This document shows, piece by piece, positions 28,701-56,448 of a DNA stretch of 64,000 nucleotides (the first letter of the stretch is position 1; every line of letters begins with the position of its first letter). A program made the translations under genes and the position numbers. The DNA is from Poritiphilus flavus (GTDB lineage Bacteria > Bacteroidota > Bacteroidia > Flavobacteriales > Flavobacteriaceae): assembly GCF_009901585.1 (NCBI RefSeq), contig NZ_WXYO01000003.1:62001-126000 (forward strand). Direction: 5' to 3'. The notes beneath the pieces are model-generated. The model saw only the letters and a list, made by a program, of their open reading frames with translations, was not told the DNA's origin and did not search any database.

Positions 28701-28907
28701 TTAAGGATCTTTAACAGATGGGGAGTATTGGTCTATGAAGGAAACAATTACAACAACCAAAACAATGTATTTGATGGCAGGTCTAAGGGAAGATCTACAG
28801 TAAGTGCGGAAGATTATTTGCCATCGGGAGTATATTTCTACATCTTTGAATACCAAAAAGACGCGGAAAATATAACAGACAGCGGTTATTTATACGTTAG
28901 TAAATAA
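25785..28907 (+). CDS. Thrombospondin-3 repeat surface protein with T9SS type-B sorting domain
   Basis: The 1040-residue secreted protein has a signal peptide ending PAWSQ. The start may be ATG 25785 or the internal ATG at 25818. Residues 55-250 form an unassigned N-terminal domain. Residues 251-938 are three copies of a 229-231 residue block (starting at 251, 480 and 711) filled with DxDxDG calcium-binding motifs of the thrombospondin type 3 kind. Residues 943-1040 are a gliding-motility-associated C-terminal (type B) sorting domain ([31 protein letters not shown]). It is likely exported by the T9SS with the PorP/SprF partner 15 bases downstream. Confidence 0.92.
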
Positions 28908-36717: not shown

Positions 36718-39700
36718 ATGACACTACAATTCCGCTTTCTTCCCAAAAAAGGCTATACTTGTCTGTTATGGCTCAGTTGCCTTATGTTTACGGCCCTGCT
36801 TCAAAGTCAGACTACCTATACGGAAAGCGCTGCTTCATACAATCTTAATATCGGAAATGGTAAGGATGGCGGTCACGCCTGGGCGGATTATGACAACGAT
36901 GGGGATCTGGATGTACTGGTGCTGATCAATAGTACTTCAATACGAAACTTCCTGATGCGCAATAACGGCAACGGAACCTTTACCAATGTACAGACGACTC
37001 TTGCACCGGGCATGATCGCCGGGGACCGGGCCGAAAGGCAGGCAGCCTGGGGAGATGTCAATAGCGATGGCAGGCCCGACTTTATGATGAATTCCTCCGG
37101 AACCTCCAGTTCGCAGGTGGCTATTCAACTCTTTATTCAGAACGCTGATGGTACTTTTGGTGATGGGATAGGAGGGACAACACCTATTACCGTCGGGGAA
37201 GCCAGCAGCGCTACGATTACCATTAATCCTTTAAATACAGAAGGTGCAGGGTTTTTCGATTTTGAAGGAGATGGTGACCTGGATATCTTTTTTGACAGCC
37301 ATAATTATGGAATAGAGTTATTGCGGAACAATTATATTGATCATACCACCAATACGGTTGTAAATCCCGCTCCCTCCGCCCTTTTTACGCATATAACTAC
37401 TGGTAATGGTAGCGGTGTAGTCAACTTTGGACTGAACCAGTTTGCTACCGATGGGGATTACGGGGCCGCGGCCGATGTCAATGACGATGGCTGGGTTGAC
37501 CTTTTTATGCGGAAGCGAGATGAGAACGACTTTTTCCTGAACCAGGGAGGAACATTTACCAACGGCTCCGATGTGGCCCAGGCAGCTAACGGAAACAAAG
37601 GAGGTGTAGGGCTTTGGGATCTTGATAATGATGGGGATCTGGATGCCGTATGGACTGAGAACGACCTGACCCAGATCTTTAGAAATGATGGACCCGGCAT
37701 TTGGACGGCTTTGGGTGCCGGCACCTTTCCCGGTCTTCCTCAACCCAGCGATACAGACAATGGCAGCTCATCAAACGATATTGATGCCCTTGCAGGAGGT
37801 GATGTGGACAACGACGGAGACATAGACATACTCTTAGTAGGAGATAGTCGAAGTTATCTCTTCATAAACCAATTAAACAGCCCGACGCCCGCTCCGGGAG
37901 TTGTCGGAAGTGGTACTGCCATGACCTTTACCTTAGATGCGGCTACCTTCAATACCCGAAACGGGGAAGGTGCTACCATGGTCGATATCGATGATGACGG
38001 AGATCTGGACATTTATATGAATATCAATCACAGTTCCGGGAATCAGTTGTTCATTAATAATCTTCCCGCGGCGAACCGAAATAATCACCTGCTTATTGAC
38101 GTTTCTGAAGATCGGGGCGCCAACGGCTCCACCGGGGGAACACCGGAACGTGTGGCCATAGGTACAAACGTTCTCATCCGGGATTGTGCAGGGAATATTG
38201 TCAGTGGCTTAAGGCAGGTAAACGGGGTATACGGGCATGGTACCCAGTCCCCTGAAGAGGTGCATTTTGGTTTGCCCCTTGGAGAAAGTGAAACCTATAT
38301 CATTGAAGTTCGTTACCCCAATTTCTACGACCCCTCGGACCCTAGCGGGTTTTCGCGGCTTATAGCCACCATCGTCGCTCAGCCCAGCACCATACCCGGT
38401 ACTAACCATTACGATCTTTCAACTACGGATGCGGAAATCGTGGAAAACGTCAATCCCCCGGATGCCGTGGACGACTTCTTTACTCTTTCGGCCGGTACAA
38501 CCATTTCTATTCAACTGAGCCTGTTCGATAATGATTCAGAACCGGACGGAGAGAATTTCTTTATTGACAGCGTGGTACAACCTGCAATAGGCTCAGTGGT
38601 AATTGATGATGCGGATGCTGGCCTGGTGACCTTTACCTACAGCGCGGGAACGCCATTCCCCGGCACTACCTTTGACTATACCATTACGGATTCTACAGTC
38701 TCTATTTGTCCCGCATTAGGCTTAAGCGATACGGCAACTGTTACCCTCTACGAACCCTGTGCTGATCCGGGTGGAACAGATTCTGACGGAGACGGTATAA
38801 ACGATGTATGTGATGAAGACGATGATAACGACGGTATACTGGACCAGGTGGAGAGTCCCAGGTCTGTTTTGTGGGTCACCAATGGTACTCCGGGTTCCGA
38901 AGAGCAAAATACCATAGACAAACTCGTTGCTTTAGGGTATTCTGTTACCGTCGTAGACGACAATGTGGGAGGAAATGCAGATAATTTTGACGTTACTTTT
39001 GTTTTTGAGGACGTTTTTAGTGGAACCGCTTTTGCCAATGTAGCTAACCTCGCAACAACCACAAAAGGGGTTATCACCAGTGAACCCGCCCTACACGACG
39101 AAATTCTCGGAGCCGCGAGTGGTGGCGCCAGTGTAAACAACTTGATCAATATTATAGATAATACCCATCCTATTACATCTGGCTTGTCCCTGGGCAATTT
39201 GGATATTAATGATGCCGAATATTACGGAAATAGCTTAACTACCGGAACAGTTCTGGGGAGGCATCCCAATGGGCAGGCCTCTGTGGCAGCCTGGGAACAG
39301 GGAGACGCCATGGAAACCGGCACAGCGCCCGGTAGAAGGGCCATAGTCCCTCAAACCAATGGAAATGGGGCTTTCAATGCTGCAGGTGAAGATCTCCTGG
39401 TACAGGCCATTATTTGGACAGCCAGTTCAGATACTGATTTGGACGGAATAGATGATCATCTGGATCTGGACAGTGATAACGATGGCATTTACGATGTAGT
39501 GGAAGCCGGGCATGACATTGCTCACACGGCAGGAAAGCTAACAGCAGCAGTTGGCCTGGACGGGGTTGCAGATAGTGTACAGGCTTCAGGACAGGAAGAC
39601 AGCGGAACTGTGATTTATACCCTACTCGATTCGGATGGCGATTCTAACTACGACTTTAGGGAGGGAGACAGTGATAACGATGGTTGTAATGATGCTGATG

Positions 39701-40200
39701 AGGCTTATGGCGACTCCAACACGGATGTGGATGACAACGGAATGTACGGTACGGGCAGCCCGGCAGTAGACGCGAACGGAAGCGTAACCGCAGCATCATA
39801 TCCGGTACCGGCGGATGCGAATACCAACAGCACTTTTGACTATCGTGAAGCGGCATCCCCTCCGGCCATAAGCGTCCAACCCGCAGATACCACCATTTGT
39901 CCGGGATGTACTGGATCTTTTTCGGTAACAGCCACAAATGCAGATACTTATCAATGGCAGCGTTTTAATGGAAGTAGCTGGGTAGACCTGGCTGATGGTG
40001 GTATTTACAGTGGAACCGCTACGGCTACTTTAACCTTGACCAATGTCACTACCGCGGAAAATGGGAATCAGTACAGGGTAGTTGTCTCCAGTACAACCTA
40101 TGTCTGCGACGTAATCACCTCAAATACAGCTACTTTAACCGTTGCGGCAAACTCGGTTATTACCAATAGACGGATAACATATAGAGTGGATCCGAACTAG
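36718..40200 (+). CDS. Large secreted FG-GAP / ASPIC-UnbV protein with ITNRRITYRV tail
   Basis: The 1160-residue protein has a signal peptide ending LLQSQ. Residues 45-450 hold seven FG-GAP/VCBS calcium motifs (DYDNDGDLD, DVNSDGRPD, DIDDDGDLD and others). An ASPIC/UnbV domain follows (about 455-540, RQVNGVYGHGTQSPEEVHFG), then a cadherin-like module (580-670) and thrombospondin-3 motifs. These motifs are interrupted by a Rossmann-like domain (about 716-903), resume to about 1010, and lead to an Ig-like module (1045-1140). The last 13 residues are ITNRRITYRVDPN, as in the upstream protein but with different codons. It is predicted to be extracellular; the ligand is unknown. Confidence 0.83.
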   Translation: MTLQFRFLPKKGYTCLLWLSCLMFTALLQSQTTYTESAASYNLNIGNGKDGGHAWADYDNDGDLDVLVLINSTSIRNFLMRNNGNGTFTNVQTTLAPGMIAGDRAERQAAWGDVNSDGRPDFMMNSSGTSSSQVAIQLFIQNADGTFGDGIGGTTPITVGEASSATITINPLNTEGAGFFDFEGDGDLDIFFDSHNYGIELLRNNYIDHTTNTVVNPAPSALFTHITTGNGSGVVNFGLNQFATDGDYGAAADVNDDGWVDLFMRKRDENDFFLNQGGTFTNGSDVAQAANGNKGGVGLWDLDNDGDLDAVWTENDLTQIFRNDGPGIWTALGAGTFPGLPQPSDTDNGSSSNDIDALAGGDVDNDGDIDILLVGDSRSYLFINQLNSPTPAPGVVGSGTAMTFTLDAATFNTRNGEGATMVDIDDDGDLDIYMNINHSSGNQLFINNLPAANRNNHLLIDVSEDRGANGSTGGTPERVAIGTNVLIRDCAGNIVSGLRQVNGVYGHGTQSPEEVHFGLPLGESETYIIEVRYPNFYDPSDPSGFSRLIATIVAQPSTIPGTNHYDLSTTDAEIVENVNPPDAVDDFFTLSAGTTISIQLSLFDNDSEPDGENFFIDSVVQPAIGSVVIDDADAGLVTFTYSAGTPFPGTTFDYTITDSTVSICPALGLSDTATVTLYEPCADPGGTDSDGDGINDVCDEDDDNDGILDQVESPRSVLWVTNGTPGSEEQNTIDKLVALGYSVTVVDDNVGGNADNFDVTFVFEDVFSGTAFANVANLATTTKGVITSEPALHDEILGAASGGASVNNLINIIDNTHPITSGLSLGNLDINDAEYYGNSLTTGTVLGRHPNGQASVAAWEQGDAMETGTAPGRRAIVPQTNGNGAFNAAGEDLLVQAIIWTASSDTDLDGIDDHLDLDSDNDGIYDVVEAGHDIAHTAGKLTAAVGLDGVADSVQASGQEDSGTVIYTLLDSDGDSNYDFREGDSDNDGCNDADEAYGDSNTDVDDNGMYGTGSPAVDANGSVTAASYPVPADANTNSTFDYREAASPPAISVQPADTTICPGCTGSFSVTATNADTYQWQRFNGSSWVDLADGGIYSGTATATLTLTNVTTAENGNQYRVVVSSTTYVCDVITSNTATLTVAANSVITNRRITYRVDPN

Positions 40201-40717: not shown

Positions 40718-43700
40718 ATGGATAAAAGAATTCTATTACTCATTTTCCTGATATCCGGATTTGCCTATTCGCAGACTACCGTAACGTTACAGGATCAATG
40801 TAACTGTGAGGTACTAAGCGGTACGGCGGTCACGGCTCCTGGAGCCACCTCTCCAACGGGTGCAGATACGGGTGATATCTATGTAAATACCACTACCGGG
40901 ACCATCTTTTACTGGGACGGCACTTCCTGGGAGCTGACCTCTTCCGATGACCAGCAGCTTCAGAATTTTAGCTTTAACGCTGGAACTAACCAACTTACCC
41001 TCGTATTGGAGAACGGAGGTACATTGAGCGTAGATTTATCAGTACTGGATAACAGCGGAACGGACAATCAGGATGCCACTGAGGTTAACCTGAACGGACC
41101 CGTTGATGTTGATGGGGATGGGAATAATGAACTGACTGTTCAGCAAGCCATAGAGGATCTGGCAGCGATTACGGAGACCGTCACGAATATGGTGGATAAT
41201 GGGGATGGTTTTATTACCTATACCAATGAGGCTGGAGCGACACAGACAGTAGCTAAAGCGGATATTACGGATAACGGGGACGGCACTTATACTTTTACAA
41301 ACAACGACGGTACTGACGTGACCCTTGATACCAATGCGGGAACCAACCCGTATGACAACACCACATCGGGTCTTACGGCAACCAATGTTCAGGACGCTAT
41401 CGATGAGATCAACGCGGCTGCCGGAACGGTGGCTTTGGTGGACAATGGAGACGGTACCTACGACTTTACGGATGCCGGCGGAAATACCACCACCATTACC
41501 GATACCTCGATCTCAACCATCACAGACAACGGCGATGGCACTTATACCTATACGGATGAAACCGGGGCCACCCAAACCATCGACACCAATGCCGGAACCA
41601 ACCCGTATGACAATACCACATCGGGCCTTACGGCAACCAATGTTCAGGATGCTATTGATGAGATCAACGCGGCTGCCGGAACGGTGGCTTTAGTGGATAA
41701 TGGCGACGGTACTTACGACTTTACCGATGCCGGCGGAAACACCACCACCATTACCGATACCTCGATTTCCACCATCACAGATAACGGGGATGGTACTTAT
41801 ACCTATACCGATGAAACCGGGGCCACCCAAACTATCGATACCAATGCGGGAACCAACCCGTATGACAACACCACATCGGGTCTTACGGCAACCAATGTTC
41901 AGGATGCTATTGATGAGATCAACGCGGCTGCCGGAACGGTGGCTTTAGTGGATAATGGCGACGGTACTTACGACTTTACCGATGCTGGCGGAAACACCAC
42001 TACCATTACGGATACCTCGATTTCCACCATCGCAGATAACGGGGATGGTACTTATACCTATACGGATGAAACCGGGGCCACCCAAACTATCGATACCAAT
42101 GCGGGAACCAACCCGTATGACAATACCACATCGGGCCTGACAGCGACCAATGTTCAGGATGCTATTGATGAGATCAACGCGGCTGCCGGAACGGTGGCTT
42201 TAGTGGATAATGGCGACGGTACTTACGACTTTACCGATGCCGGTGGCAACACCACTACCATTACCGATACCTCAATCTCGACCATCACAGACAACGGCGA
42301 TGGTACCTATACCTATACGGATGAGACCGGGGCTACCCAAACCATCGACACCAATGCGGGAACCAACCCGTATGACAATACCACATCGGGTCTTACGGCA
42401 ACCAATGTTCAGGATGCTATCGATGAGATCAACGCGGCTGCCGGAACGGTGGCTTTAGTGGATAATGGCGACGGAACTTACGACTTTACCGATGCCGGCG
42501 GAAACACCACCACCATTACCGATACCTCAATCTCGACCATCACCGACAATGGGGATGGCACTTATACCTATACCGATGAAACCGGGGCCACCCAAACTAT
42601 CGATACCAATGCGGGAACCAACCCGTATGACAATACCACATCGGGCCTGACAGCGACCAATGTTCAGGATGCTATTGACGAGATCAACGCGGCTGCCGGA
42701 ACGGTGGCTTTAGTGGATAATGGCGACGGTACTTACGACTTTACCGATGCCGGCGGAAATACCACCACCATTACCGATACCTCGATTTCCACCATCGCAA
42801 ATAATGGGGATGGTACCTATACCTATACGGATGAGACCGGGGCCACCCAAACCATCGATACCAATGCGGGAACCAACCCGTATGACAATACCACATCGGG
42901 CCTGACAGCGACGAATGTTCAGGATGCTATTGATGAGATCAACGCGGCTGCCGGAACGGTGGCTTTAGTGGATAATGGAGACGGTACTTACGACTTTACC
43001 GATGCTGGCGGAAACACCACTACCATTACGGATACGTCGATTTCTACCATCGCTAATAACGGCGATGGAACTTATACCTATACCGACGAGACGGGGGCTA
43101 CCCAAACCATCGATACCAATGCGGGAACCAACCCGTATGACAACACCACATCGGGCCTTACGGCAACCAATGTTCAGGATGCCATTGACGAGATCAACGC
43201 GGCTGCCGGAACGGTGGCTTTAGTGGATAATGGCGACGGTACTTACGACTTTACCGATGCCGGTGGAAACACCACTACCATTACGGATACCTCGATTTCT
43301 ACCATCGCTAATAACGGCGATGGCACCTATACCTATACCGATGAAACCGGGGCTACCCAGACCATCGACACCAATGCGGGAACCAACCCGTATGACAATA
43401 CCACATCGGGCCTGACAGCGACCAATGTTCAGGATGCTATTGATGAGATCAACGCGGCTGCCGGAACGGTGGCTTTAGTGGATAATGGCGACGGTACTTA
43501 CGACTTTACCGATGCTGGCGGAAACACCACCACCATTACGGATACATCGATTTCCACCATTACCGATAATGGGGATGGCACCTATACCTATACGGATGAA
43601 ACCGGGGCAACCCAAACCATCGACACCAATGCTGGTACCAACCCGTATGACAACACCACATCGGGCCTGACAGCGACCAATGTTCAGGATGCCATTGACG

Positions 43701-46700
43701 AGATCAACGCGGCTGCCGGAACGGTAGCTTTGGTGGATAATGGAGACGGTACTTACGACTTTACCGATGCCGGCGGAAACACCACTACCATTACGGATAC
43801 GTCGATTTCTACCATCGCTAATAACGGCGATGGCACCTATACCTATACGGATGAGACGGGAGCTACCCAGACCATCGACACCAATGCCGGTACCAACCCG
43901 TATGACAATACCACATCGGGCCTTACGGCAACCAATGTTCAGGCTGCCATTGACGAGATCAACGCGGCTGCCGGAACGGTGGCTTTAGTGGATAATGGCG
44001 ACGGTACTTACGACTTTACGGATGCCGGTGGAAACACCACCACCATTACGGATACGTCGATTTCTACCATCGCTAATAACGGCGATGGCACCTATACCTA
44101 TACGGATGAGACGGGAGCTACCCAGACCATCGACACCAATGCGGGAACCAACCCGTATGACAACACCACATCAGGCCTGACAGCGACGAATGTTCAGGCT
44201 GCCATCGATGAGATCAACGCGGCTGCCGGAACGGTGGCTTTAGTGGATAATGGCGACGGTACTTACGACTTTACGGATGCCGGTGGAAACACCACCACCA
44301 TTACGGATACCTCGATTTCCACCATCGCTAATAACGGTGATGGCACCTATACCTATACGGATGAGACGGGAGCTACCCAGACCATCGACACCAATGCGGG
44401 AACCAACCCGTATGACAACACCACATCAGGCCTGACAGCGACGAACGTACAGGCTGCGATTGATGAGTTGAATACAAATAGCACAGACGATCAGAATATT
44501 AGTGGTTCCGGACTTAGTGGAACCGACTTGACTATAGGCATTGAGAATGGAACTAATGAAACTGTTGACCTGTCCTCTCTGGTTGATGATGCGGATGCAG
44601 TGATCGGAAACGAATATAACACGGGCGTGGCAATGAATGCCGGTAGCCTGGAGGTTATCGATGGAGGAGGCACCCTGTCTGAAAGCCTCATAAGTACCGA
44701 TGCGAATAATGATATTATTGCCGGTTCGGACGGTTCGCTCTATTTGAATGTGGCATCAGTGACTATCGCAGAGACCGTGACTAATATTGTGGATAATGCC
44801 GATGGAACCTTTACTTATACCAATGAAAATGGGGTACCCCAGACGATCAACAAATCTGATGTAACAGATAATGGGGACGGTACCTATACTTTTACCAATA
44901 ATGACGGTTCTGATGTGACTCTTGACACCAGGGCTTCCAGCAACCCATATGATAATACGACTTCAGGATTGACTGCAACAAATGTCCAGGCGGCGATTGA
45001 TGAGGTATCTGCCGGGAGTACAGACGATCAGAACATCAGTGGATCCGGACTTTCGGGTACCGATCTTACCATTGGAATAGAAAACGGTACTTCCGAGACT
45101 GTAGACCTTTCCAGTCTTGTCGGCACTGATGATCAAACTGCCGCAGAGGTCACTTATGATAATACTACATCAGGATTAACAGCTGCCAATGTACAGGCCG
45201 CTATTGATGAATTAAATACGAATAGCACCGATGATCAGAACATCAGTGGATCAGGCCTTGCCGGTACAGATCTGACCATAGGGATTGAAAATGGTACTTC
45301 TGAGACTGTTGACCTTTCCAGCCTTGTGGGAACAGACGATCAGAACATCAGCGGATCCGGACTTTCAGGAACTGATCTTACCATCGGCATAGAAAATGGT
45401 ACTTCAGAGACAGTAGACCTTTCCAGCCTGGTGGGTACAGATGATCAGAATATTGAAAACCTGGCTGTTAACACTACAACCAACGTCTTGACCGTAGGTA
45501 TTGAGGACGGTACAAGTCAGACTGTAGACCTTTCACACCTGGATGATGCGGGTACGGATGACCAGAACATCAGCGGATCAGGGCTTTCAGGTACTGATCT
45601 TACTATAGGAATTGAGAATGGTACTTCGGAGATAGTAGATCTTTCCAGCCTTGTGGGTACTGACGATCAGAATATCGAAAACCTGGCTGTCAATACGACC
45701 ACTAATGTGTTGACTGTAGGTATCGAGGATGGTACCAGTCAGACTGTAGACCTGTCACACCTGGATGATGCCGGTACGGACGATCAGAATATCAGTGGAT
45801 CAGGACTTTCAGGTACCGATCTTACCATAGGTATAGAAAATGGTACTTCAGAGACAGTAGACCTTTCCAGTCTTGTCGGCACTGATGATCAAACTGCCGC
45901 AGAGGTCACTTATGATAATACTACATCAGGATTGACAGCTGCCAACGTACAGGCCGCTTTTGATGAATTAAATACGAATAGCACCGATGATCAGAACATC
46001 AGTGGATCAGGCCTTGCCGGTACAGATCTGACCATAGGGATTGAAAACGGTACTTCCGAAACCGTAGATCTTTCCAGCCTTGTTGGAACAGATGACCAGA
46101 ATATCAGCGGATCCGGACTTTCAGGTACTGATCTTACCATAGGAATTGAGAATGGTACCAATGAAACCATAGACCTTTCATCTCTTGTAGATGATGCGGA
46201 TGCCGTGATCGGAAACGAATATAATACCGCCGTAACCATGAACGCCGGTAGTTTGGAGGTTACTGATGGAGGCGGTACACTGTCCGACAATTTAATCAGT
46301 ACGGACGCTAACAACGACATAAGTGCTGGTTCTGATGGGGCATTATATCTCAATGTGGCTTCTGTTACTATATCTGAGACCATAACCAACCTTGTGGATA
46401 ACGGTGACGGAACCTTTACCTATACCAATGAAAATGGGGTGCCGCAGACGGTCAGCAAGGCAGACATTACGGACAATGCTGATGGTACTTATACCTTTAC
46501 CAATAATGATGGTACAGATGTAACTTTGGATACCAGGGCTTCCAGCAATCCTTATGACAATACTACTTCCGGTCTTACGGCTACCAATGTACAGGCTGCA
46601 ATTGACGAAGTAGCTTCCGGAAGCACTGACGATCAGAACATCAGTGGATCTGGTCTTTCAGGAACCGATCTTACTATAGGAATAGAGAACGGAACTTCGG

Positions 46701-49700
46701 AGACAGTAGATCTTTCCAGCCTTGTTGGAACTGACGATCAGAACATCGAGAGCCTTGCTGTCAATACGACCACAAACGTACTTACTGTCGGTATCGAAGA
46801 TGGTACCAGTCAGACCGTGGACCTGTCTCACCTGGATGATGCGGGTACGGACGATCAGAACATCAGCGGATCAGGGCTTTCAGGTACTGATCTTACTATA
46901 GGAATTGAGAATGGTACCTCGGAAACTGTCGACCTGTCCAGCCTTGTAGGAACTGACGATCAGAATATCGAAAATCTGGCTGTTAACACTACAACTAACG
47001 TCTTGACCGTGGGTATTGAGGATGGTACAAGCCAGACTGTAGACCTGTCCCACCTGGACGATGCCGGTACGGACGATCAGAACATCAGCGGATCAGGCCT
47101 TTCTGGAACCGATCTTACCATTGGAATCGAGAACGGAACTTCAGAAACTGTTGACCTGTCCAGCCTTGTGGGTACTGACGATCAGACTGCTGCAGAGGTC
47201 ACTTATGATAATACAACATCAGGATTGACAGCTGCCAATGTGCAGGCCGCTATTGACGAATTGAATACGAATAGTACCGATGATCAGAATATCAGTGGAT
47301 CCGGACTTTCAGGAACTGATCTTACCATAGGAATTGAGAATGGTACTTCAGAGACAGTAGACCTGTCTAGCCTTGTTGGCACGGACGATCAGAATATCGA
47401 AAACCTGGCTGTCAATACCACTACAAATGTGCTCACAGTAGGTATTGAAGATGGTACAAGCCAGACCGTAGACCTCTCGCATTTAGACGATGCTGGTACG
47501 GATGATCAGAACATCAGCGGATCTGGCCTTTCAGGAACCGATCTTACTATAGGAATAGAGAACGGAACTTCGGAGACGGTAGACCTGTCGAGCCTTGTTG
47601 GTTCGGATGATCAGAATATCAGCGGATCAGGGCTTTCAGGCACCGATCTTACCATAGGAATTGAGAATGGTACTTCGGAGACAGTAGATCTTTCCAGCCT
47701 TGTTGGTACTGACGATCAGAATATCGAAAACCTGGCTGTCAATACGACCACTAATGTGTTGACTGTAGGTATCGAGGATGGTACCAGTCAAACGGTAGAC
47801 CTCTCGCATTTAGACGATGCCGGTACGGACGATCAGAATATCAGCGGATCCGGACTTTCAGGAACTGATCTTACCATTGGAATTGAGAACGGTACTTCGG
47901 AAACTGTTGACCTGTCCAGTCTTGTGGGTACTGACGATCAAACTGCCGCAGAGGTCACTTATGATAATACAACATCAGGACTGACAGCTGCCAATGTACA
48001 GGCCGCTATTGATGAATTAAATACGAATAGCACTGATGATCAGAATATCAGCGGTTCCGGACTTTCAGGAACTGATCTTACCATCGGCATAGAAAATGGT
48101 ACTTCAGAGACCGTAGACCTGTCTAGCCTTGTTGGTTCGGACGATCAGAATATCAGCGGATCGGGGCTTTCGGGTACGGATTTAACGATTGGAATTGAAA
48201 ACGGTACTTCGGAGACTGTAGACCTGTCCAGCCTTGTGGGTACTGACGATCAGAATATCAGCGGATCGGGGCTTTCGGGTACGGATTTAACGATTGGAAT
48301 TGAAAACGGTACTTCAGAGACCGTAGATCTTTCCAGCCTTGTTGGAACTGACGATCAGAATATTGAGAGCCTGGCTGTTAACACTACAACCAATGTATTG
48401 ACCGTGGGTATCGAGAATGGTACAAGTCAGACTGTAGACCTGTCCCACCTGGATGATGCGGGTACGGACGATCAGAACATCAGTGGATCTGGCCTTTCAG
48501 GTACAGATCTTACCATTGGCATTGAGAATGGAACCAGTGAAACTGTTGATCTTTCTTCACTTGTTGACGATGCCGATGCCGTAATCGGGAACGAATACAA
48601 TACGGGCCTGGCCATGAATGCCGGCAGTATTGAGGTTACAGATGGAGGTGGAACGCTTTCCGAAAGCCTTATCAGTACAGACGCGAATAATGATATTGCC
48701 TCAGGTTCTGACGGTGCCCTGTACCTTAATGTGGCCTCCGTCACTATATCTGAGACCATTACAAATCTGGTGGATAACGGTGATGGGACCTTTACCTATA
48801 CCAATGAAAATGGGGTGCCACAGACAGTTAGCAAGGCAGACATTACGGACAATGCAAATGGTACTTATACCTTTACGAACAATGATGGTTCAGATGTGAC
48901 TCTGGATACAAGGGCTTCCAGTAACCCCTATGATAACACCACTTCTGGTCTTACGGCAACCAATGTTCAGGCTGCAATTGACGAAGTGGCTTCCGGAAGC
49001 ACAGACGATCAGAACATCAGTGGATCTGGCCTGTCAGGTACTGATCTTACTATTGGAATCGAGAACGGTACTTCAGAGACAGTTGACCTTTCCAGCCTTG
49101 TAGGTAGCGACGATCAGAATATCAGTGGATCCGGACTTTCAGGAACTGATCTTACCATTGGAATTGAAAATGGTACTTCAGAGACTGTAGATCTTTCCAG
49201 CCTTGTAGGTACTGACGATCAAACTGCTGCAGAGGTTACTTATGATAATACTACATCAGGATTGACAGCTGCCAATGTACAGGCCGCTATTGATGAATTA
49301 AATACGAATAGCACTGATGATCAGAATATCAGTGGATCTGGCCTTTCTGGTACTGATCTTACTATAGGAATTGAGAACGGTACTTCAGAGACTGTAGACC
49401 TGTCTAGCCTTGTTGGAACAGACGATCAGAATATCGAGAGCCTTGCCGTCAATACGACCACAAATGTACTTACTGTAGGTATCGAGGATGGTACCAGTCA
49501 GACCGTAGACCTCTCGCATTTAGACGATGCCGGTACGGACGATCAGAATATCAGCGGATCCGGACTTTCAGGAACCGATCTTACCATAGGAATTGAGAAC
49601 GGTACTTCAGAGACTGTAGACCTGTCTAGCCTTGTGGGTACTGACGATCAGAATATCGAAAACCTGGCTGTTAACACTACAACTAACGTCTTGACCGTGG

Positions 49701-52700
49701 GTATTGAGGATGGTACCAGTCAGACTGTAGACCTTTCACACCTGGATGATGCGGGTACGGACGACCAGAATATCAGCGGATCCGGACTTTCAGGTACCGA
49801 TCTTACCATAGGAATTGAGAATGGTACTTCAGAGACTGTAGACCTTTCCAGCCTTGTTGGTTCGGACGATCAGAACATCAGTGGATCCGGACTTTCTGGT
49901 ACCGATCTTACCATAGGTATAGAAAATGGTACTTCGGAAACTGTAGACCTTTCCAGCCTTGTCGGAACTGACGATCAGAATATCGAGAGCCTTGCCGTAA
50001 ATACGACCACAAATGTACTTACTGTAGGTATCGAGGATGGTACCAGTCAAACGGTAGACCTCTCGCATTTAGACAATGCCGGTACGGATGACCAGAACAT
50101 CAGTGGATCCGGCCTTTCTGGAACCGATCTTACCATAGGAATTGAGAATGGCACCTCGGAAACTGTAGACCTGTCTAGCCTTGTGGGTACTGACGATCAA
50201 ACTGCTGCAGAGGTTACTTATGATAATACAACATCAGGATTGACAGCTGCCAATGTACAGGCTGCTATTGATGAATTAAATACGAATAGCACTGATGATC
50301 AGAATATCAGCGGATCCGGCCTTTCAGGTACTGATCTTACTATAGGAATAGAGAACGGTACTTCGGAAACTGTCGATCTATCCAGCCTTGTTGGAACTGA
50401 CGATCAGAATATCGAGAGCCTTGCCGTAAATACGACCACAAATGTACTTACTGTAGGTATTGAGGATGGTACCAGTCAGACTGTAGACCTTTCACACCTG
50501 GACGATGCCGGTACGGATGATCAAAATATTAGTGGATCCGGACTTTCAGGTACCGATCTTACCATAGGTATAGAAAATGGTACTTCGGAAACTGTAGACC
50601 TTTCCAGCCTTGTGGGTACTGACGATCAAACTGCTGCAGAGGTTACTTATGATAATACAACATCAGGATTGACAGCTGCCAATGTACAGGCCGCTATTGA
50701 TGAATTAAATACGAATAGCACTGATGATCAGAATATTAGCGGATCCGGACTTTCAGGAACCGATCTTACTATAGGAATAGAGAACGGTACTTCAGAGACT
50801 GTAGATCTTTCCAGCCTGGTGGGTAGTGATGACCAGAACATCAGCGGTTCCGGACTTTCAGGAACTGATCTTACCATAGGAATTGAGAATGGTACCTCGG
50901 AAACTGTCGACCTGTCCAGCCTTGTTGGAACTGACGATCAGAACATCGAGAGCCTTGCTGTCAATACGACCACAAATGTACTTACTGTAGGTATCGAGGA
51001 CGGTACCAGTCAGACTGTAGACCTGTCTCATCTGGATGATGCCGGGACGGACGATCAGAATATCAGCGGTTCCGGCCTTTCAGGTACTGATCTTACTATA
51101 GGAATAGAGAACGGTACTTCGGAAACTGTCGATCTATCCAGCCTTGTTGGAACTGACGATCAGAATATCGAGAGCCTTGCCGTAAATACGACCACAAATG
51201 TACTTACTGTAGGTATCGAGGATGGTACCAGTCAAACGGTAGACCTCTCGCATTTAGACGATGCCGGTACGGATGACCAGAATATCAGTGGATCCGGACT
51301 TTCAGGTACTGATCTTACCATTGGCATTGAGAACGGTACTTCAGAAACTGTGGATCTTTCGAGCCTTGTTGGCACTGATGATCAGAACATCGAGAGTCTT
51401 GCCGTCAATACGACCACAAATGTACTTACTGTAGGTATCGAGGATGGTACCAGTCAGACTGTAGACCTCTCGCATTTAGACGATGCAGGTACAGATGATC
51501 AGAATATCAGTGGATCTGGGCTTTCAGGAACGGATCTTACCATAGGAATTGAGAATGGTACTTCAGAGACTGTAGACCTTTCCAGCCTTGTTGGTTCGGA
51601 TGATCAGAACATCAGTGGATCTGGGCTTTCGGGTACGGATTTAACGATTGGAATTGAGAACGGTACTTCAGAGACTGTAGACCTGTCCAGCCTTGTTGGA
51701 ACAGACGATCAGAACATCGAGAGTCTTGCCGTCAATACGACCACAAACGTACTTACTGTAGGTATCGAGGATGGTACCAGTCAGACTGTAGACCTGTCAC
51801 ACCTGGATGATGCCGGTACGGATGATCAGAATATTAGCGGATCCGGACTTTCAGGAACCGATCTTACTATAGGAATAGAGAACGGTACTTCAGAGACTGT
51901 AGATCTTTCCAGCCTGGTGGGTAGTGATGACCAGAACATCAGCGGTTCCGGACTTTCAGGAACTGATCTGACCATTGGCATCGAAAACGGTACTTCGGAA
52001 ACTGTAGACCTATCAAGTCTTGTCGGTTCGGATGATCAGAACATCAGCGGTTCCGGACTTTCAGGAACTGATCTGACCATTGGCATCGAAAACGGTACTT
52101 CGGAAACCGTAGACCTGTCCAGCCTTGTTGGAACAGACGATCAGAATATCGAGAGCCTGGCTGTCAATACGACCACAAATGTACTTACTGTAGGTATCGA
52201 GGATGGTACCAGTCAGACTGTAGACCTCTCGCATTTAGACGATGCAGGTACAGATGATCAGAATATCAGTGGATCGGGGCTTTCGGGTACGGATTTAACG
52301 ATTGGAATTGAAAACGGTACTTCAGAGACTGTGGATCTTTCCAGCCTTGTTGGAACAGACGATCAGAATATCAGCGGATCCGGACTTTCAGGAACCGATC
52401 TTACCATTGGAATTGAGAACGGTACTTCAGAGACTGTAGATCTTTCCAGCCTTGTTGGTTCGGATGATCAGAATATCAGCGGATCTGGCCTTTCAGGAAC
52501 GGATCTTACCATTGGAATAGAAAATGGTACTTCAGAGACTGTAGACCTGTCCAGCCTTGTTGGAACAGACGATCAGAATATCGAGAGCCTTGCCGTAAAT
52601 ACGACCACAAATGTACTTACCGTTGGTATCGAGGATGGTACCAGTCAGACCGTAGACCTCTCGCATTTAGACGATGCCGGTACGGATGATCAGAATATCA

Positions 52701-53434
52701 GTGGATCCGGACTTTCTGGTACTGATCTTACTATCGGCATAGAAAATGGTACTTCAGAGACTGTGGATCTTTCCAGCCTTGTAGGTACAGATGATCAAAA
52801 TATCCAGGCGCTTGCTGTAAATACTACTACAAATGTACTGACCGTAGGTATTGAAAATGGAAGCGGTCAAACGGTAGACCTTTCACATTTGGACGATGCA
52901 GGTACAGACGATCAGAACATCAGCGGATCAGGATTATCCGGTACTGACTTAACCATTGGAATAGAAAACGGTACTTCAGAGACTGTAGACCTGTCCAGCC
53001 TTGTTGGTACGGACGATCAGAACGCCTCTGAAGTTAATTCAGACACTCCTGTAGATGTGGATGGAGATGGCAATACTGAGGCCACCGTAGAAGATGTGAT
53101 TCAGGATATCGCGCCGATTACGGCAAAAGCCGCCAGGATCTTTTATCCGCCTTCTATCGCGGTGGACGCTTCAACCAATGGAACCTTCAATATTGATCTT
53201 TACGCACAATACACTGCACAGTACGGTTCACCTACCGTGGCAAGTGCAGGGGCTCCTGCCGCCGTACCCACATATACGGCAACCGAGCTGTATTACTACG
53301 TAACCTACGCTGATCCGGCAGTATTCAATACCGCGACAATGAGTATCGATGCTAATGGTGTACTTACTTATACCATCATAGGTCAACCTGCGGATTATAA
53401 CTCCCTGATCAATGTAGTCTTCGTAGTTAAATAA
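40718..53434 (+). CDS. Giant repetitive surface protein (about 4,240 residues)
   Basis: From ATG 40718 the product has 4,238 residues and a signal peptide (ending GFAYSQ); an upstream in-frame ATG at 40649 would put a basic 23-residue extension before it. A short N-terminal part has phage-fibre-like text (GDIYVNTTTGTIFYWDGTSW). Next are 12 tandem 85-residue units (41345-44404). A long second zone has 35-residue (DDQNISGSGLSGTDLTIGIE) and 39-residue (DDQNIENLAVNTTTNVLTVG) units, and three copies of a larger cassette (near 44.58, 46.19 and 48.56 kb). The last 115 residues are unique (AARIFYPPSIAVD to LINVVFVVK) and do not look like a T9SS domain. Low charge and beta-rich content suggest a long surface fibre. 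It is followed after 22 bases by the type-B gene. Confidence 0.85.
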   Translation: MDKRILLLIFLISGFAYSQTTVTLQDQCNCEVLSGTAVTAPGATSPTGADTGDIYVNTTTGTIFYWDGTSWELTSSDDQQLQNFSFNAGTNQLTLVLENGGTLSVDLSVLDNSGTDNQDATEVNLNGPVDVDGDGNNELTVQQAIEDLAAITETVTNMVDNGDGFITYTNEAGATQTVAKADITDNGDGTYTFTNNDGTDVTLDTNAGTNPYDNTTSGLTATNVQDAIDEINAAAGTVALVDNGDGTYDFTDAGGNTTTITDTSISTITDNGDGTYTYTDETGATQTIDTNAGTNPYDNTTSGLTATNVQDAIDEINAAAGTVALVDNGDGTYDFTDAGGNTTTITDTSISTITDNGDGTYTYTDETGATQTIDTNAGTNPYDNTTSGLTATNVQDAIDEINAAAGTVALVDNGDGTYDFTDAGGNTTTITDTSISTIADNGDGTYTYTDETGATQTIDTNAGTNPYDNTTSGLTATNVQDAIDEINAAAGTVALVDNGDGTYDFTDAGGNTTTITDTSISTITDNGDGTYTYTDETGATQTIDTNAGTNPYDNTTSGLTATNVQDAIDEINAAAGTVALVDNGDGTYDFTDAGGNTTTITDTSISTITDNGDGTYTYTDETGATQTIDTNAGTNPYDNTTSGLTATNVQDAIDEINAAAGTVALVDNGDGTYDFTDAGGNTTTITDTSISTIANNGDGTYTYTDETGATQTIDTNAGTNPYDNTTSGLTATNVQDAIDEINAAAGTVALVDNGDGTYDFTDAGGNTTTITDTSISTIANNGDGTYTYTDETGATQTIDTNAGTNPYDNTTSGLTATNVQDAIDEINAAAGTVALVDNGDGTYDFTDAGGNTTTITDTSISTIANNGDGTYTYTDETGATQTIDTNAGTNPYDNTTSGLTATNVQDAIDEINAAAGTVALVDNGDGTYDFTDAGGNTTTITDTSISTITDNGDGTYTYTDETGATQTIDTNAGTNPYDNTTSGLTATNVQDAIDEINAAAGTVALVDNGDGTYDFTDAGGNTTTITDTSISTIANNGDGTYTYTDETGATQTIDTNAGTNPYDNTTSGLTATNVQAAIDEINAAAGTVALVDNGDGTYDFTDAGGNTTTITDTSISTIANNGDGTYTYTDETGATQTIDTNAGTNPYDNTTSGLTATNVQAAIDEINAAAGTVALVDNGDGTYDFTDAGGNTTTITDTSISTIANNGDGTYTYTDETGATQTIDTNAGTNPYDNTTSGLTATNVQAAIDELNTNSTDDQNISGSGLSGTDLTIGIENGTNETVDLSSLVDDADAVIGNEYNTGVAMNAGSLEVIDGGGTLSESLISTDANNDIIAGSDGSLYLNVASVTIAETVTNIVDNADGTFTYTNENGVPQTINKSDVTDNGDGTYTFTNNDGSDVTLDTRASSNPYDNTTSGLTATNVQAAIDEVSAGSTDDQNISGSGLSGTDLTIGIENGTSETVDLSSLVGTDDQTAAEVTYDNTTSGLTAANVQAAIDELNTNSTDDQNISGSGLAGTDLTIGIENGTSETVDLSSLVGTDDQNISGSGLSGTDLTIGIENGTSETVDLSSLVGTDDQNIENLAVNTTTNVLTVGIEDGTSQTVDLSHLDDAGTDDQNISGSGLSGTDLTIGIENGTSEIVDLSSLVGTDDQNIENLAVNTTTNVLTVGIEDGTSQTVDLSHLDDAGTDDQNISGSGLSGTDLTIGIENGTSETVDLSSLVGTDDQTAAEVTYDNTTSGLTAANVQAAFDELNTNSTDDQNISGSGLAGTDLTIGIENGTSETVDLSSLVGTDDQNISGSGLSGTDLTIGIENGTNETIDLSSLVDDADAVIGNEYNTAVTMNAGSLEVTDGGGTLSDNLISTDANNDISAGSDGALYLNVASVTISETITNLVDNGDGTFTYTNENGVPQTVSKADITDNADGTYTFTNNDGTDVTLDTRASSNPYDNTTSGLTATNVQAAIDEVASGSTDDQNISGSGLSGTDLTIGIENGTSETVDLSSLVGTDDQNIESLAVNTTTNVLTVGIEDGTSQTVDLSHLDDAGTDDQNISGSGLSGTDLTIGIENGTSETVDLSSLVGTDDQNIENLAVNTTTNVLTVGIEDGTSQTVDLSHLDDAGTDDQNISGSGLSGTDLTIGIENGTSETVDLSSLVGTDDQTAAEVTYDNTTSGLTAANVQAAIDELNTNSTDDQNISGSGLSGTDLTIGIENGTSETVDLSSLVGTDDQNIENLAVNTTTNVLTVGIEDGTSQTVDLSHLDDAGTDDQNISGSGLSGTDLTIGIENGTSETVDLSSLVGSDDQNISGSGLSGTDLTIGIENGTSETVDLSSLVGTDDQNIENLAVNTTTNVLTVGIEDGTSQTVDLSHLDDAGTDDQNISGSGLSGTDLTIGIENGTSETVDLSSLVGTDDQTAAEVTYDNTTSGLTAANVQAAIDELNTNSTDDQNISGSGLSGTDLTIGIENGTSETVDLSSLVGSDDQNISGSGLSGTDLTIGIENGTSETVDLSSLVGTDDQNISGSGLSGTDLTIGIENGTSETVDLSSLVGTDDQNIESLAVNTTTNVLTVGIENGTSQTVDLSHLDDAGTDDQNISGSGLSGTDLTIGIENGTSETVDLSSLVDDADAVIGNEYNTGLAMNAGSIEVTDGGGTLSESLISTDANNDIASGSDGALYLNVASVTISETITNLVDNGDGTFTYTNENGVPQTVSKADITDNANGTYTFTNNDGSDVTLDTRASSNPYDNTTSGLTATNVQAAIDEVASGSTDDQNISGSGLSGTDLTIGIENGTSETVDLSSLVGSDDQNISGSGLSGTDLTIGIENGTSETVDLSSLVGTDDQTAAEVTYDNTTSGLTAANVQAAIDELNTNSTDDQNISGSGLSGTDLTIGIENGTSETVDLSSLVGTDDQNIESLAVNTTTNVLTVGIEDGTSQTVDLSHLDDAGTDDQNISGSGLSGTDLTIGIENGTSETVDLSSLVGTDDQNIENLAVNTTTNVLTVGIEDGTSQTVDLSHLDDAGTDDQNISGSGLSGTDLTIGIENGTSETVDLSSLVGSDDQNISGSGLSGTDLTIGIENGTSETVDLSSLVGTDDQNIESLAVNTTTNVLTVGIEDGTSQTVDLSHLDNAGTDDQNISGSGLSGTDLTIGIENGTSETVDLSSLVGTDDQTAAEVTYDNTTSGLTAANVQAAIDELNTNSTDDQNISGSGLSGTDLTIGIENGTSETVDLSSLVGTDDQNIESLAVNTTTNVLTVGIEDGTSQTVDLSHLDDAGTDDQNISGSGLSGTDLTIGIENGTSETVDLSSLVGTDDQTAAEVTYDNTTSGLTAANVQAAIDELNTNSTDDQNISGSGLSGTDLTIGIENGTSETVDLSSLVGSDDQNISGSGLSGTDLTIGIENGTSETVDLSSLVGTDDQNIESLAVNTTTNVLTVGIEDGTSQTVDLSHLDDAGTDDQNISGSGLSGTDLTIGIENGTSETVDLSSLVGTDDQNIESLAVNTTTNVLTVGIEDGTSQTVDLSHLDDAGTDDQNISGSGLSGTDLTIGIENGTSETVDLSSLVGTDDQNIESLAVNTTTNVLTVGIEDGTSQTVDLSHLDDAGTDDQNISGSGLSGTDLTIGIENGTSETVDLSSLVGSDDQNISGSGLSGTDLTIGIENGTSETVDLSSLVGTDDQNIESLAVNTTTNVLTVGIEDGTSQTVDLSHLDDAGTDDQNISGSGLSGTDLTIGIENGTSETVDLSSLVGSDDQNISGSGLSGTDLTIGIENGTSETVDLSSLVGSDDQNISGSGLSGTDLTIGIENGTSETVDLSSLVGTDDQNIESLAVNTTTNVLTVGIEDGTSQTVDLSHLDDAGTDDQNISGSGLSGTDLTIGIENGTSETVDLSSLVGTDDQNISGSGLSGTDLTIGIENGTSETVDLSSLVGSDDQNISGSGLSGTDLTIGIENGTSETVDLSSLVGTDDQNIESLAVNTTTNVLTVGIEDGTSQTVDLSHLDDAGTDDQNISGSGLSGTDLTIGIENGTSETVDLSSLVGTDDQNIQALAVNTTTNVLTVGIENGSGQTVDLSHLDDAGTDDQNISGSGLSGTDLTIGIENGTSETVDLSSLVGTDDQNASEVNSDTPVDVDGDGNTEATVEDVIQDIAPITAKAARIFYPPSIAVDASTNGTFNIDLYAQYTAQYGSPTVASAGAPAAVPTYTATELYYYVTYADPAVFNTATMSIDANGVLTYTIIGQPADYNSLINVVFVVK
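41345..44404 (+). repeat. Twelve tandem 255-bp repeats inside the giant gene
   Basis: The period is exactly 255 bases (85 codons), 12 times. Units differ by few bases, mostly synonymous. Two amino-acid positions vary in a graded way along the array: TDNGDG/ADNGDG/ANNGDG, and NVQDAIDE changing to NVQAAIDE in the last units. This indicates unequal crossing-over. Confidence 0.97.
44480..53020 (+). repeat. Interleaved 105-bp and 117-bp repeats inside the giant gene
   Basis: Dozens of 35-residue units (DDQNISGSGLSGTDLTIGIE...) alternate with 39-residue units (DDQNIE[NS]LAVNTTTNVL...) and with TAAEVTYDNTTSGLTAANVQ spacers. Protein sequences are almost invariant while codons differ (GGATCC/GGATCT/GGTTCC and similar). 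Confidence 0.95.
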
Positions 53435-53456: not shown

Positions 53457-55472
53457 TTGAGAACCAACCATCAATACAAGCTACTTTTCCTCAGTATTGT
53501 TTTTACTTTACTGGGGATTACTGCATCTAATGCCCAGTTCCTGCTTCAGGCTCCTAATGGGGGAGGACAAAGCAATTACCGCTGGTATGAGGCTTCGGAT
53601 ACAAGCACCGTATTGAGCACGGATTTTTTCTATGAGACGAGTACACCAGGGGTTTATTTTGCTACGTATGATGGCACTCTTTGTGGTTCCAATGCGACGG
53701 GATATTTTATCCTGACAGATTGTAATAACCCGGATAATCAGGTAACCCTTGATATTTCGGCCAATGTGAACGGTTCGGCAACCGTAAGCTGGAACCCTGC
53801 GGTTTCAGGCGATCAGTTGAGACCCGTAGTGACATCCACCACTACCGTGGTCAGATATACAGCTACCATCACTAAGGCAGGAAATAACTCAGACCTGCCT
53901 GCATTTACGGTAGTATGTATGGCACAGGCAGCTACACTTGTAGACGATTTCGTAACAGTGGATGAAGACGACTCTGTGGTTGTAGATATCTATGCGAACG
54001 ACAGTAACCTGCCAACTACAGGTAGCCTGGTGGCCACTGATCCACCTAATGGTACAGTGAATATCAACGATAACGGAACACCCAATGACCCAACGGACGA
54101 TATTGTAACCTATATTCCGGACCCGGACTACAACGGACCGGATTCCTTTGATTATACAGTATGTAATTCCATAGGAGATTGTAGTACGGCGACGGTAACG
54201 GTTGATGTGCTCCCGATCGTAGATGCTATTGACGATGCCATAGCTACCATAGAAAATCAATTCGTGGATATCGATATCCTGGCAAATGACAATGATCTGC
54301 CTAATTCAGGTACTCTAACAAGTACTAACCCATCTAATGGTAATGTGACGATCAATGACGGTGGTACCCCTGGAGATCCTTCGGACGACTTTATAACCTA
54401 CGTTCCGGACCTCGGATTTATCGGAACTGATACTTTCACATATACCATTTGTGATTCGGTCGGAAACTGTAGTACCGCGACAGTAACCGTGGTTGTTAAC
54501 CCGATAGGTGCAGATATAGACAGGGACGATGATGGTATTGTGGACAGCTTTGAAGATCTTAATCTGGATGGTGATAATGATCCATCTACAGATCCAACGG
54601 ATTCCGATGGCGATGGCATACCGGATTATCTGGATATTGACAGTGATGACGACGGTATTCCTGACAACGTAGAATCTCAGACCACAGCGGGCTACATCCC
54701 ACCGAGTGGAGTTGATGCGGATGGCAATGGCCTGGATGACGCGTACGAGAACGGTGGCGGTCTTGGTATTATCCCTATAGACACAGATGGTGATGCCCTT
54801 CCGGATTACCTGGATAGTGATAGCGATAATGACAATGTACCGGATGCCACAGAAGCCCATGATTACGATCAGGACGGTATTCCTGATGTTACCCTGATCG
54901 GTTCTGATAAGGACAATGACGGCCTGGACGACGGATACGAAGGAGCAACAGTGATCGATATTGATGTGAACGATGAGATCAACGATCCTTTCAACGACCT
55001 TCCGAATACGGATCGCGATGCTGAATCAGACTACAGGGATACTGACGATGATGGTGATTTGTTGATGACCATAGATGAGGACGTAGACGGAGATGGAGAC
55101 TTTACAAATGACGATGTTGATGCAGATGGTATTCCGGATTACCTGGAGCCGAACTTCGACGGTGATGATGTAGAGGTCTTTAATGTGGTTACACCTAACA
55201 GCGATGGAATACACGATGTTCTTACCATAGACGGCCTGGAGAACTATCCTGACAATACCATAAGGATCTATAACAGATGGGGTGTTCTCGTATACACCAC
55301 CAGGTCTTACAACACCCAGGGTAATGTCTTTGATGGCACTTCACAGGGTAGAGTTACTGTGGATCAGGACAATAAATTGCCTGTTGGAACGTATTTCTAT
55401 ATACTGGATTACATTATTCCCGAATCCGGCGAAACGAGATCGCTGTCTGGCTATATATACATAAACCGATAA
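53457..55472 (+). CDS. Surface protein with cadherin-like and thrombospondin-3 repeats and T9SS type-B domain
   Basis: The 671-residue protein begins with TTG 53457 (an in-frame ATG is not available nearby) and has a signal peptide ending SNAQ. An Ig-like N-terminal part is followed by two tandem cadherin-like modules (about 165-260 and 262-355), thrombospondin-3 calcium motifs (358-565) and a type-B sorting domain (575-671; [36 protein letters not shown]). Its C-terminal half resembles the protein at 25785. It starts 22 bases after the giant gene and ends 7 bases before a PorP/SprF gene, so these three probably form one secretion and assembly unit. Confidence 0.9.
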
Positions 55473-55479
55473 CCTACTA

Positions 55480-56448
55480 ATGCTGCAGTCCAGTCGAAAT
55501 ACAAAAACAGTCCTGAAGATCGCCATATTGGCTTTCCTCAGCAGCTTTTTCGCGGCCGAATCACTTTTCGGCCAACAAGACGCGCAGTACACCCAGTACA
55601 TGTATAATACGGTAAGTGTGAACCCAGGATACGCCGGTTCCCGGGGTCATTTTAGTATCGCGGCACTACACAGGTCGCAATGGGTAGGCCTGGAAGGCGC
55701 ACCTGTTACCCAAACACTTAATTTGCATACTCCCCTGGGATATCGCGGAGCGGGTATTGGCTTGTCTATTGTCAACGAGCAGATCGGACCCACCTCGGAA
55801 ACCTATCTTGACGTGGATTTTTCGTATACGCTTCAAACCTCAAAGGATGCGAGATTAAGTTTTGGCCTAAAGGCCAGTGGTCATTTATTGGATGTTCGCT
55901 TTTCGGAACTGAACCAGGATGTTCTAAACCCTAATGGCCCGGATCCTACTTTGCAACAGGACATCAGTAACCGTTTTTCACCTAACGTAGGTGCCGGAGT
56001 TTACTACCATACCGATCGCTTTTATGCCGGAGTATCTGTCCCCAGGATTTTGGAGACCTCTCATTTTGACGAATCTTCCCTTTCCACCGCCAAGGAGCAG
56101 ATGAATTACTACCTGATCACAGGTTATGTTTTTGACCTTGACGCCTTCTGGAAATTCAAACCGGCTATTTTAAGTAAAGTGGTCTTTGGAGCACCTTTGC
56201 AATTGGACTTCTCTGCCAGCTTTATGTACAACGACAAATTTATTATAGGGGCTGCATATCGATGGGACGCTGCTGTAAGCGGTATGGCTGGTTTCCAGAT
56301 TTCGCCGGAATTTCTGATAGGTCTTGCATACGACAGGGAGATAACAGAACTTGGTCAGGCTGTTTTCAATGATGGCTCTTTCGAGGTTATTCTCCGTTAT
56401 GATTTTATCAAGGTTCTGGACAACCTTAAGTCTCCCAGATTCTTCTAG
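55480..56448 (+). CDS. PorP/SprF family T9SS-associated outer-membrane protein
   Basis: The 322-residue protein has a signal peptide (ending LFGQ) and the family start QQDAQYTQYMYNTVSVNPGYAGSRG. The later blocks RFSPNVGAGVYYHTDRFYAGVS and FIIGAAYRWDAAVSGMAGFQIS match the paralogue at 28923 closely. It probably helps secrete or anchor the type-B protein encoded seven bases upstream, and perhaps the giant protein. Unlike the first cluster, no OmpA partner follows. Confidence 0.92.
   Translation: MLQSSRNTKTVLKIAILAFLSSFFAAESLFGQQDAQYTQYMYNTVSVNPGYAGSRGHFSIAALHRSQWVGLEGAPVTQTLNLHTPLGYRGAGIGLSIVNEQIGPTSETYLDVDFSYTLQTSKDARLSFGLKASGHLLDVRFSELNQDVLNPNGPDPTLQQDISNRFSPNVGAGVYYHTDRFYAGVSVPRILETSHFDESSLSTAKEQMNYYLITGYVFDLDAFWKFKPAILSKVVFGAPLQLDFSASFMYNDKFIIGAAYRWDAAVSGMAGFQISPEFLIGLAYDREITELGQAVFNDGSFEVILRYDFIKVLDNLKSPRFF

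Follow-up and report, generated by a model that had tools for sequence, protein, structure and literature searches.

A giant repeat protein with an undescribed C-terminal domain, encoded beside a type B/PorP pair in Poritiphilus flavus: a probable T9SS-linked surface fibre

The window, by which we mean the whole stretch of 64,000 nucleotides analysed from Poritiphilus flavus (C12:62001-126000 of a host assembly of 5.0 Mb in 19 contigs), carries on its forward strand a giant gene at 40718-53434, delimited by its ORF, its translation and a module parse. No stop codon interrupts this frame of 4,238 residues, in agreement with the earlier note, which had described about 4,240 residues, mostly repeats, with a signal peptide. 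The product begins with MDKRILLLIFLISGFAYSQ, a signal peptide as judged by eye (about residues 1-18, 40718-40771), and ends in LINVVFVVK; an in-frame ATG lies 69 bp 5' of this start, and the orthologues start at the signal peptide, again by eye. The N-terminal module that follows (TTVTLQDQCNCEV..., 40772-41059) extends to about residue 114 and contains in DQCNC the only two cysteines of the entire protein, C28 and C30. An array of 85-residue units occupies 41330-44467, where Tandem Repeats Finder detects a 255-bp period in 12.3 copies with 93% matches and the module parse 12 copies, and from 44948 to 53022 DDQ units of 34-37 residues are interspersed with YDNTTSGLTATNVQAAIDE units and others, with periods of 105, 222, 327 and 432 bp downstream of 44467 and up to 53022. 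The parse, made with seven named patterns, counts 12 of the 85-residue units, 60 DDQ units (42 of type "A", 18 of type "B"), 23 NVQ units of 19 residues each and three rarer unit types, and together these patterns cover 3,731 of the 4,238 residues. The 85-residue unit in 12 copies agrees with the "near-crystalline" repeat described before, but the body as a whole is composed of two arrays and several types of unit. The chain closes with a C-terminal domain of about 103 residues (residues 4136-4238, 53123-53431; hereafter the C-domain), defined by the lack of a family match, by its relatives and by a structural model.

The neighbouring genes lie on the same strand. The next gene (53457-55472) encodes a 671-residue protein with a Big_9 domain and a type B CTD (CHU_C/TIGR04131), and directly 3' of it, at 55480-56448, is a gene for a PorP/SprF-family barrel that ends in IKVLDNLKSPRFF, with no cysteine and hence no Cys-X-Cys tail; HMM matches confirm both assignments, as the earlier note had made them. 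Upstream of the giant are two large secreted proteins, one at 32064-36506 (Calx-beta, SdrD_B, beta-helix; tail IITNRRITYRVNPN) and one at 36718-40200 (FG-GAP, cadherin-like; tail VITNRRITYRVDPN), both of which have ITNRRITYRV followed by three more residues at their C-terminus. Between 25785 and 31823 lies another type B-PorP-PorE set, comprising a type B CTD protein of 1,040 residues (25785-28907, by HMM), a PorP/SprF protein (28923-29876, by profile match) and a PorE-like protein with TPR, PD40, CarboxypepD_reg and OmpA domain matches (29889-31823). The PorE-like gene accompanies this first PorP and not the one at 55480-56448. Scans of the locus for promoters and terminators gave no excess over shuffled sequences.

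The repeats are under purifying selection. Successive copies of the 85-residue unit differ by 177 synonymous to 15 non-synonymous codon differences, and successive A units by 563 to 27, against an expectation of 25% synonymous for random single-base changes; none of the 861 pairs among the 42 A units is identical in DNA. Because the copies differ mostly at synonymous sites, the repeats are not recent and their protein sequence has been held by selection. We therefore rejected a chance frame or a pseudogene, given these differences and the absence of stops. Mis-assembly is unlikely, since the longest exact repeat in the gene is 149 bp and two single-contig genomes carry the C-domain on comparable frames with the same N-terminal module (4,622 residues in G056 and 3,537 in G143), although the assembled copy number itself is unproven. 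Several families match the repeats. YgdI/YgdR (E 2.4e-31), DUF2442 and ANAPC4_WD40 each exceed their cut-off, and DUF903 is among the others; these matches are short, partial and recur along the array, and we took them as chance resemblance. A phage search with one 113-residue repeat stretch returned no match at E<=1e-5, residues 1-2,061 found no match in PDB, and a model of the repeats is of low confidence (pLDDT 69.5, pTM 0.28).

For the C-domain, no relative above cut-off was found in Pfam, NCBIfam, PHROG or PDB. The HMMs for the T9SS type A CTD (TIGR04183/Por_Secre_tail, in NCBIfam and Pfam) do not match the giant's C-terminus, nor does that for the type B CTD (TIGR04131/CHU_C) match the giant; likeness to type A was judged by HMM, and to type C as far as NCBIfam covers it. 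A comparison of the C-domain and type B profiles (hhalign) gave a probability of 0.2%, that is, no similarity. The suggestion that the giant bears no recognisable T9SS domain held up for types A and B. The AlphaFold2 model of the domain (pLDDT 82.6, pTM 0.64) shows a helix and then mainly strands, the last of which reaches the C-terminus; as regards the seven-stranded Ig-like beta-sandwich of type A CTDs, it gave no significant fold match. Fold searches with this model returned nothing at E<=0.001, and the best VIA row, a tail of phage SU10, reached Z 5.8, where values under 8 may reflect a common arrangement. The sole match of the domain profile in PDB was MCP2 at E 0.11, and PF18906 (Phage_tube_2), found below cut-off at E 0.0017 in one of 19 members, was dropped.

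The same C-terminus had been called unique, and in this respect the earlier description did not survive. The C-domain occurs in 29 of 149 genomes of the same family, one copy in each, with 28 relatives at 36-91% identity, and in 14 of 395 genomes of the phylum, all of them inside the order except for one weak match (G246); a genome of another family (G419) has four copies, and we found no second full-length copy in the genome of P. flavus. Bacterial contigs yielded 440 confirmed stretches with the domain, the best 80 of which, a selection skewed toward close relatives, include Eudoraea, Zeaxanthinibacter, Muricauda, Robiginitalea, Cellulophaga, Aquimarina, Tenacibaculum and others, whereas viral contigs scanned with one pattern of the domain gave no relative. 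Judged from its sequence, the C-domain is an undescribed and unannotated domain family in Flavobacteriales. In a second family of the order (L248-L251 and L259), it is found on secreted proteins of about 200 residues.

The association with the type B/PorP pair, which the earlier note had thought might anchor or export the giant, is borne out by gene order in two sets of neighbourhoods that overlap by six loci. Of 28 relatives, 27 have a type B and a PorP/SprF gene after the C-domain gene and in the same orientation (with one gene in between in L053, L055, L056 and L058), and in 74 of 80 loci of the second set the two follow it directly. Counting against a strict pairing, the pair is absent from L054 in the first set, PorP is missing from six loci of the second (L095, L104, L114, L121, L131 and L138), and the C-domain of L248-L251, like that of L054, L095 and L114, has no type B/PorP nearby. 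The contigs of L121 and L131 end shortly downstream, and L104 and L138 show no PorP within 10 kb. PorE-like genes come after PorP on the same strand in five of the 28 relatives (L049, L053 and L055-L057) and in L252 and L254, and they lie upstream of the giant at 12 loci across both sets; in the close loci of the second set, none of the 80 has a PorE-like match downstream. PorE-like genes belong to the static anchors of PMC9143113 and PMC12618676, so that their presence at these loci speaks for our reading of a static anchor, and their lack downstream in the 80 loci and beside the PorP at 55480-56448 speaks against it. Type B matches number 29 in the P. flavus genome as a whole, 28 of them above cut-off, and type A matches 17; several of the type B matches lie on very long frames (7,117, 5,789, 5,246 and 4,129 residues). 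Contigs C17 and C19 both start with type B ends, at equal offset and with near-equal score, which likely marks an assembly break in giant adhesin genes.

At some loci the C-domain is detached from the giant or replaced. In L253 (G446), a frame of 2,161 residues has the same N-terminal module and a different end, for which we coined the label jelly-roll-like (...DIDLEFMFTVILIP), and the C-domain sits on the next, separate frame of 599 residues, followed by type B and PorP. An end of this type beside a short C-domain protein of about 210-220 residues is present at nine more distinct loci (L052, L099, which is equal to L036, L104, L117, L119, L131, L135, L137 and L138), and profile comparison found no similarity between the C-domain and this end in the giants of the split loci. 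The jelly-roll-type giants carry DID[LI][ED]FM[FY]T in their C-terminal part, have conserved cysteines and, in the one scanned, gave no Pfam match. L253 and the nine other loci argue that the fibre does not always need the C-domain in cis. The P. flavus genome itself encodes a second repeat giant (L228, G000:C10:217000-236000; 2,435 residues) with related DDQ/NVQ repeats. It has a different N-terminus and an unrelated C-terminus, and downstream of it come genes for a type B protein, PorP and a PorE-like protein that lacks an OmpA match, which also counts against a requirement for the C-domain. Taken together, the detached-domain loci and L228 point to a common plan in which a fibre whose end can be exchanged is combined with a type B/PorP anchor. 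Since the C-domain remains next to the anchor genes also at loci whose giant does not carry it, we place it at the base of the fibre and not at its tip.

The body of the protein is interchangeable. At least 10 consecutive Gly-X-Y triplets are found in 16 of 108 C-domain-bearing ORFs (102 distinct), a share that is a lower bound because many of these ORFs end at contig ends, and in L037, L074 and L078 the shared N-terminal module and the C-domain frame 1,038, 783 and 438 consecutive Gly-X-Y residues, respectively, whereas 200 shuffled versions of the window protein gave 6 at most. Rods of the collagen type form triple helices. Reading of the full window protein found no Gly-X-Y tract, which counts against a trimer of the collagen type. 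DDQ/NVQ repeats in the window take the place that Gly-X-Y rods hold in relatives, and, as the same end modules frame collagen-like rods there, the giant is probably a homotrimeric surface fibre. The N-terminal module gives a strong match (E below 1e-28) in 19 of 149 genomes, and all 19 are domain-positive; its Cys-X-Cys motif is found in 18 of these 19 loci, L208 being unresolved by the patterns used. At E<=0.001 the module is found in 36 of 149 genomes, and the 17 outside the strong group are weak: none is better than E 8.6e-8, their matches span a portion of the query, and most of these genomes are domain-negative.

The median identity is 68% for the C-domain, 71% for PorP and 71-73% for type B; the C-domain is about as conserved as its neighbours, unlike a hypervariable tip. 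Co-variation was assessed on loci that also gave a housekeeping control. On the 18 loci in common, the identity of the C-domain to the window correlates with that of the N-terminal part of type B (rho 0.58, nominal p 0.012, one of four tests), and not clearly with that of the C-terminal part of type B (rho -0.07), of PorP (rho 0.28, not significant) or of a neighbouring housekeeping gene (rho 0.17, not significant). A higher value for the C-domain and PorP (rho 0.71, n=26) came from unequal locus sets and was discarded, as it falls to 0.28 on the common loci.

The tail shared by the two upstream secreted proteins, which we call the ITN tail, follows the C-domain across genomes. We collected 25 distinct ITN-type tails (window, L032-L139 and L248-L259). 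An ITNP tail closes the product of the gene inserted in L053, L055, L056, L252 and L254. Of the four neighbourhoods L248-L251, three (L248-L250) have an ITN-like tail on the next gene product, and another such tail is present in L259. We built a profile from tails in domain-bearing loci, using roughly their last 33 residues; in the family it matches 23 of 29 domain-positive genomes at E<=0.001 and none of the 120 domain-negative ones (Fisher 7.6e-22). As all 18 genomes at RpoB identity of at least 94% are domain-positive, most of the tail-positive genomes come from one clade; outside it, and leaving aside G000 and G037, the tail is found in 4 of 9 versus 0 of 120 (p 1.1e-5, a value that is not strict because the nine genomes are mutually related). 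In the phylum sample the profile reaches E<=0.001 in 9 of 395 genomes, 8 of which cover the tail and are all domain-positive, three of the eight being also in the family sample. G174, with E 6.5e-5 over profile positions 2-22 and the tail uncovered, was dropped. Matches at E 0.001-0.01 were left uncounted (G010, G014 and G051 in the family; G348, G438, G318 and G507 in the phylum). Five clear domain-positive genomes of the phylum (G454 and four of family f2) have no ITN tail at E<=0.001, and G477 is the only one of the 15 listed genomes of genus g128 with either the domain or the tail at threshold. No NCBIfam match (six proteins) or Pfam match (two proteins) covers the tail. Large secreted proteins carry the tail, from one to a few in each genome, and some are encoded at unlinked loci (e.g. 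G001:C6 and G032:C1:2.78 Mb). One speculative explanation, which we consider distinctly unlikely, is that the C-domain with type B/PorP might form a dedicated surface receiver for tails of the class (V/I)ITN(R/P)xxxxRV, which could dock, for example, as an added beta-strand; if true, tail and receiver would make up a sorting system additional to the type A, B and C signals.

To account for the architecture of the giant and its constant gene neighbours, we propose that it is one chain of a static homotrimeric fibre that shares export and anchoring with a dedicated type B/PorP pair via the C-domain, a tentative reading to which we assign a probability of a little under one half (about 0.47). The chain would be exported by Sec and would cross the outer membrane via the T9SS in company with the adjoining type B protein and PorP, which would also hold it. 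The C-domain would bring three chains into register and dock the fibre to type B/PorP at the outer membrane, with the repeat body acting as an exchangeable spacer; the N-terminal module would then be distal, and its conserved Cys-X-Cys may lock the trimer through disulfides. Such a complex would be static and may serve attachment or cell-cell contact, not gliding. The open frame, the selection on the repeats, the domain family, the constant gene order, the swap with collagen-like bodies and the PorP without Cys-X-Cys are observed; trimer, export route, docking, orientation and function we infer.

The C-domain could instead be a new T9SS sorting class, read directly by the translocon or PorP and by itself sufficient to export and anchor the giant. 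Its extreme C-terminal position, its mainly stranded model, the basic final residue in at least 90% of its rows (as on the neighbouring type B proteins), its constancy behind a variable body and the adjoining PorP would all fit, and so would its distribution, the best 80 of the 440 loci being from Bacteroidota as far as organism names tell. However, the C-domain has one copy in 29 of 29 positive family genomes, against the 29 type B and 17 type A matches of P. flavus; PorP is already paired with a type B protein, the type B profile is dissimilar, the type A and B HMMs do not match, and the L253 giant with its N-terminal module exists without the C-domain. We regard a new sorting class as somewhat unlikely. 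Quite improbable, in our view, is an inverted fibre, in which the C-domain would be the distal receptor-binding tip of a tail-fibre-like protein and the N-terminal Cys-X-Cys module its cell-proximal anchor. The weak fold rows are rich in phage tail and tailspike proteins and H-type lectins (VIA Z of at most 5.8; best BFVD E 0.008), and the N-termini of the short forms look tail-fibre-like, by eye. Yet no fold match reaches E<=0.001 and BFVD holds viral proteins only, the domain is conserved like anchor proteins and not hypervariable, and in several loci where it is detached it remains beside type B/PorP (L099, L117, L119, L135, L137 and L253).

The earlier note had also suggested a role in adhesion or gliding. 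An adhesion role may apply; a gliding role, with the giant as an adhesin moved on a GldJ/GldK track like SprB, appears very improbable, even though this is a giant surface protein with a PorP/SprF gene, in a genome that has SprA and SprF-like genes. In Flavobacterium johnsoniae, according to the available text of PMC12635249, SprF is tied to GldK via a Cys-X-Cys C-terminal tail. The giant in the window has no type B domain of its own, and its PorP is no Cys-X-Cys carrier; this is also the case in relatives, where 28 of 29 PorP rows lack a cysteine in the last 40 residues and the remaining row has one. Cys-X-Cys tails occur in two of the 10 PorP/SprF matches of the P. flavus genome, three of which have frames that run past the barrel and hide its true tail, and one of the two directly follows an SprB-like giant type B gene elsewhere (C10:799 kb). 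The sprA gene itself (L196/L197, G000:C17:36275-43263) is present as two overlapping ORFs in different frames, through a sequencing error or a real break. Precedents for static complexes exist: in the accessible part of PMC12618676, SprB and others move, those linked to PorE are suggested to be static, and Fjoh_3952, whose cluster includes a PorE-like gene, is static, while the excerpt of PMC9143113 reports a complex of PorE, PorP and a type B protein. On the basis of the PorP without Cys-X-Cys, these precedents and the nearby type B-PorP-PorE set, we favour static anchoring of the giant over gliding.

Gene order ties a new domain family to the type B/PorP carriers and suggests that they may hold separate giant fibres and not just proteins that bear a type B domain, and the locus makes testable how giants without type A or B domains leave T9SS bacteria. 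The ITN tail adds an unrecognised C-terminal tail, found at E<=0.001 only in domain-positive genomes of the two samples searched. Exact peptides of the domain end, the tail, the N-terminal module and the repeat were absent from open-licence PMC texts, a scope outside of which closed papers and preprints fall, and topic searches gave no description of such a fibre and end-domain system.

Bacterial collagen-like proteins and phage tail fibres are long trimeric rods with a terminal trimerisation domain. The orthologues of the giant resemble them in their collagen-like bodies, but the body in the window consists of DDQ/NVQ repeats and is coupled to T9SS-type anchor genes. SprB/SprF of F. johnsoniae is likewise a giant, repeat-rich surface protein beside a PorP/SprF protein in a T9SS bacterium; according to PMC12635249 and PMC12618676, SprB itself carries a type B domain and SprF ends in a Cys-X-Cys tail, whereas in our locus another protein, of 671 residues, bears the type B domain and the barrel lacks Cys-X-Cys. 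Fjoh_3952/3951/3950 and PG1035-PorP-PorE share type B and PorP with our locus, where PorE lies elsewhere in the cluster. Fjoh_3952 was seen as static foci (PMC12618676, in the part available), and no separate carried fibre is described for the anchor complexes in the accessible text of PMC12618676 and PMC9143113, while here a giant with a new end-domain of its own precedes the pair. The T9SS type A, B and C sorting domains (for type C, the available portion of PMC10202324) are C-terminal, about 100 residues long and constant on varied bodies, as is the C-domain, which differs in having one copy per genome and in occurring also as a separate small protein. What appears to be new is that, in a surface adhesin locus linked to the T9SS, the fibre is a protein of its own, probably trimeric and with an undescribed end-domain, that goes with a type B/PorP anchor.
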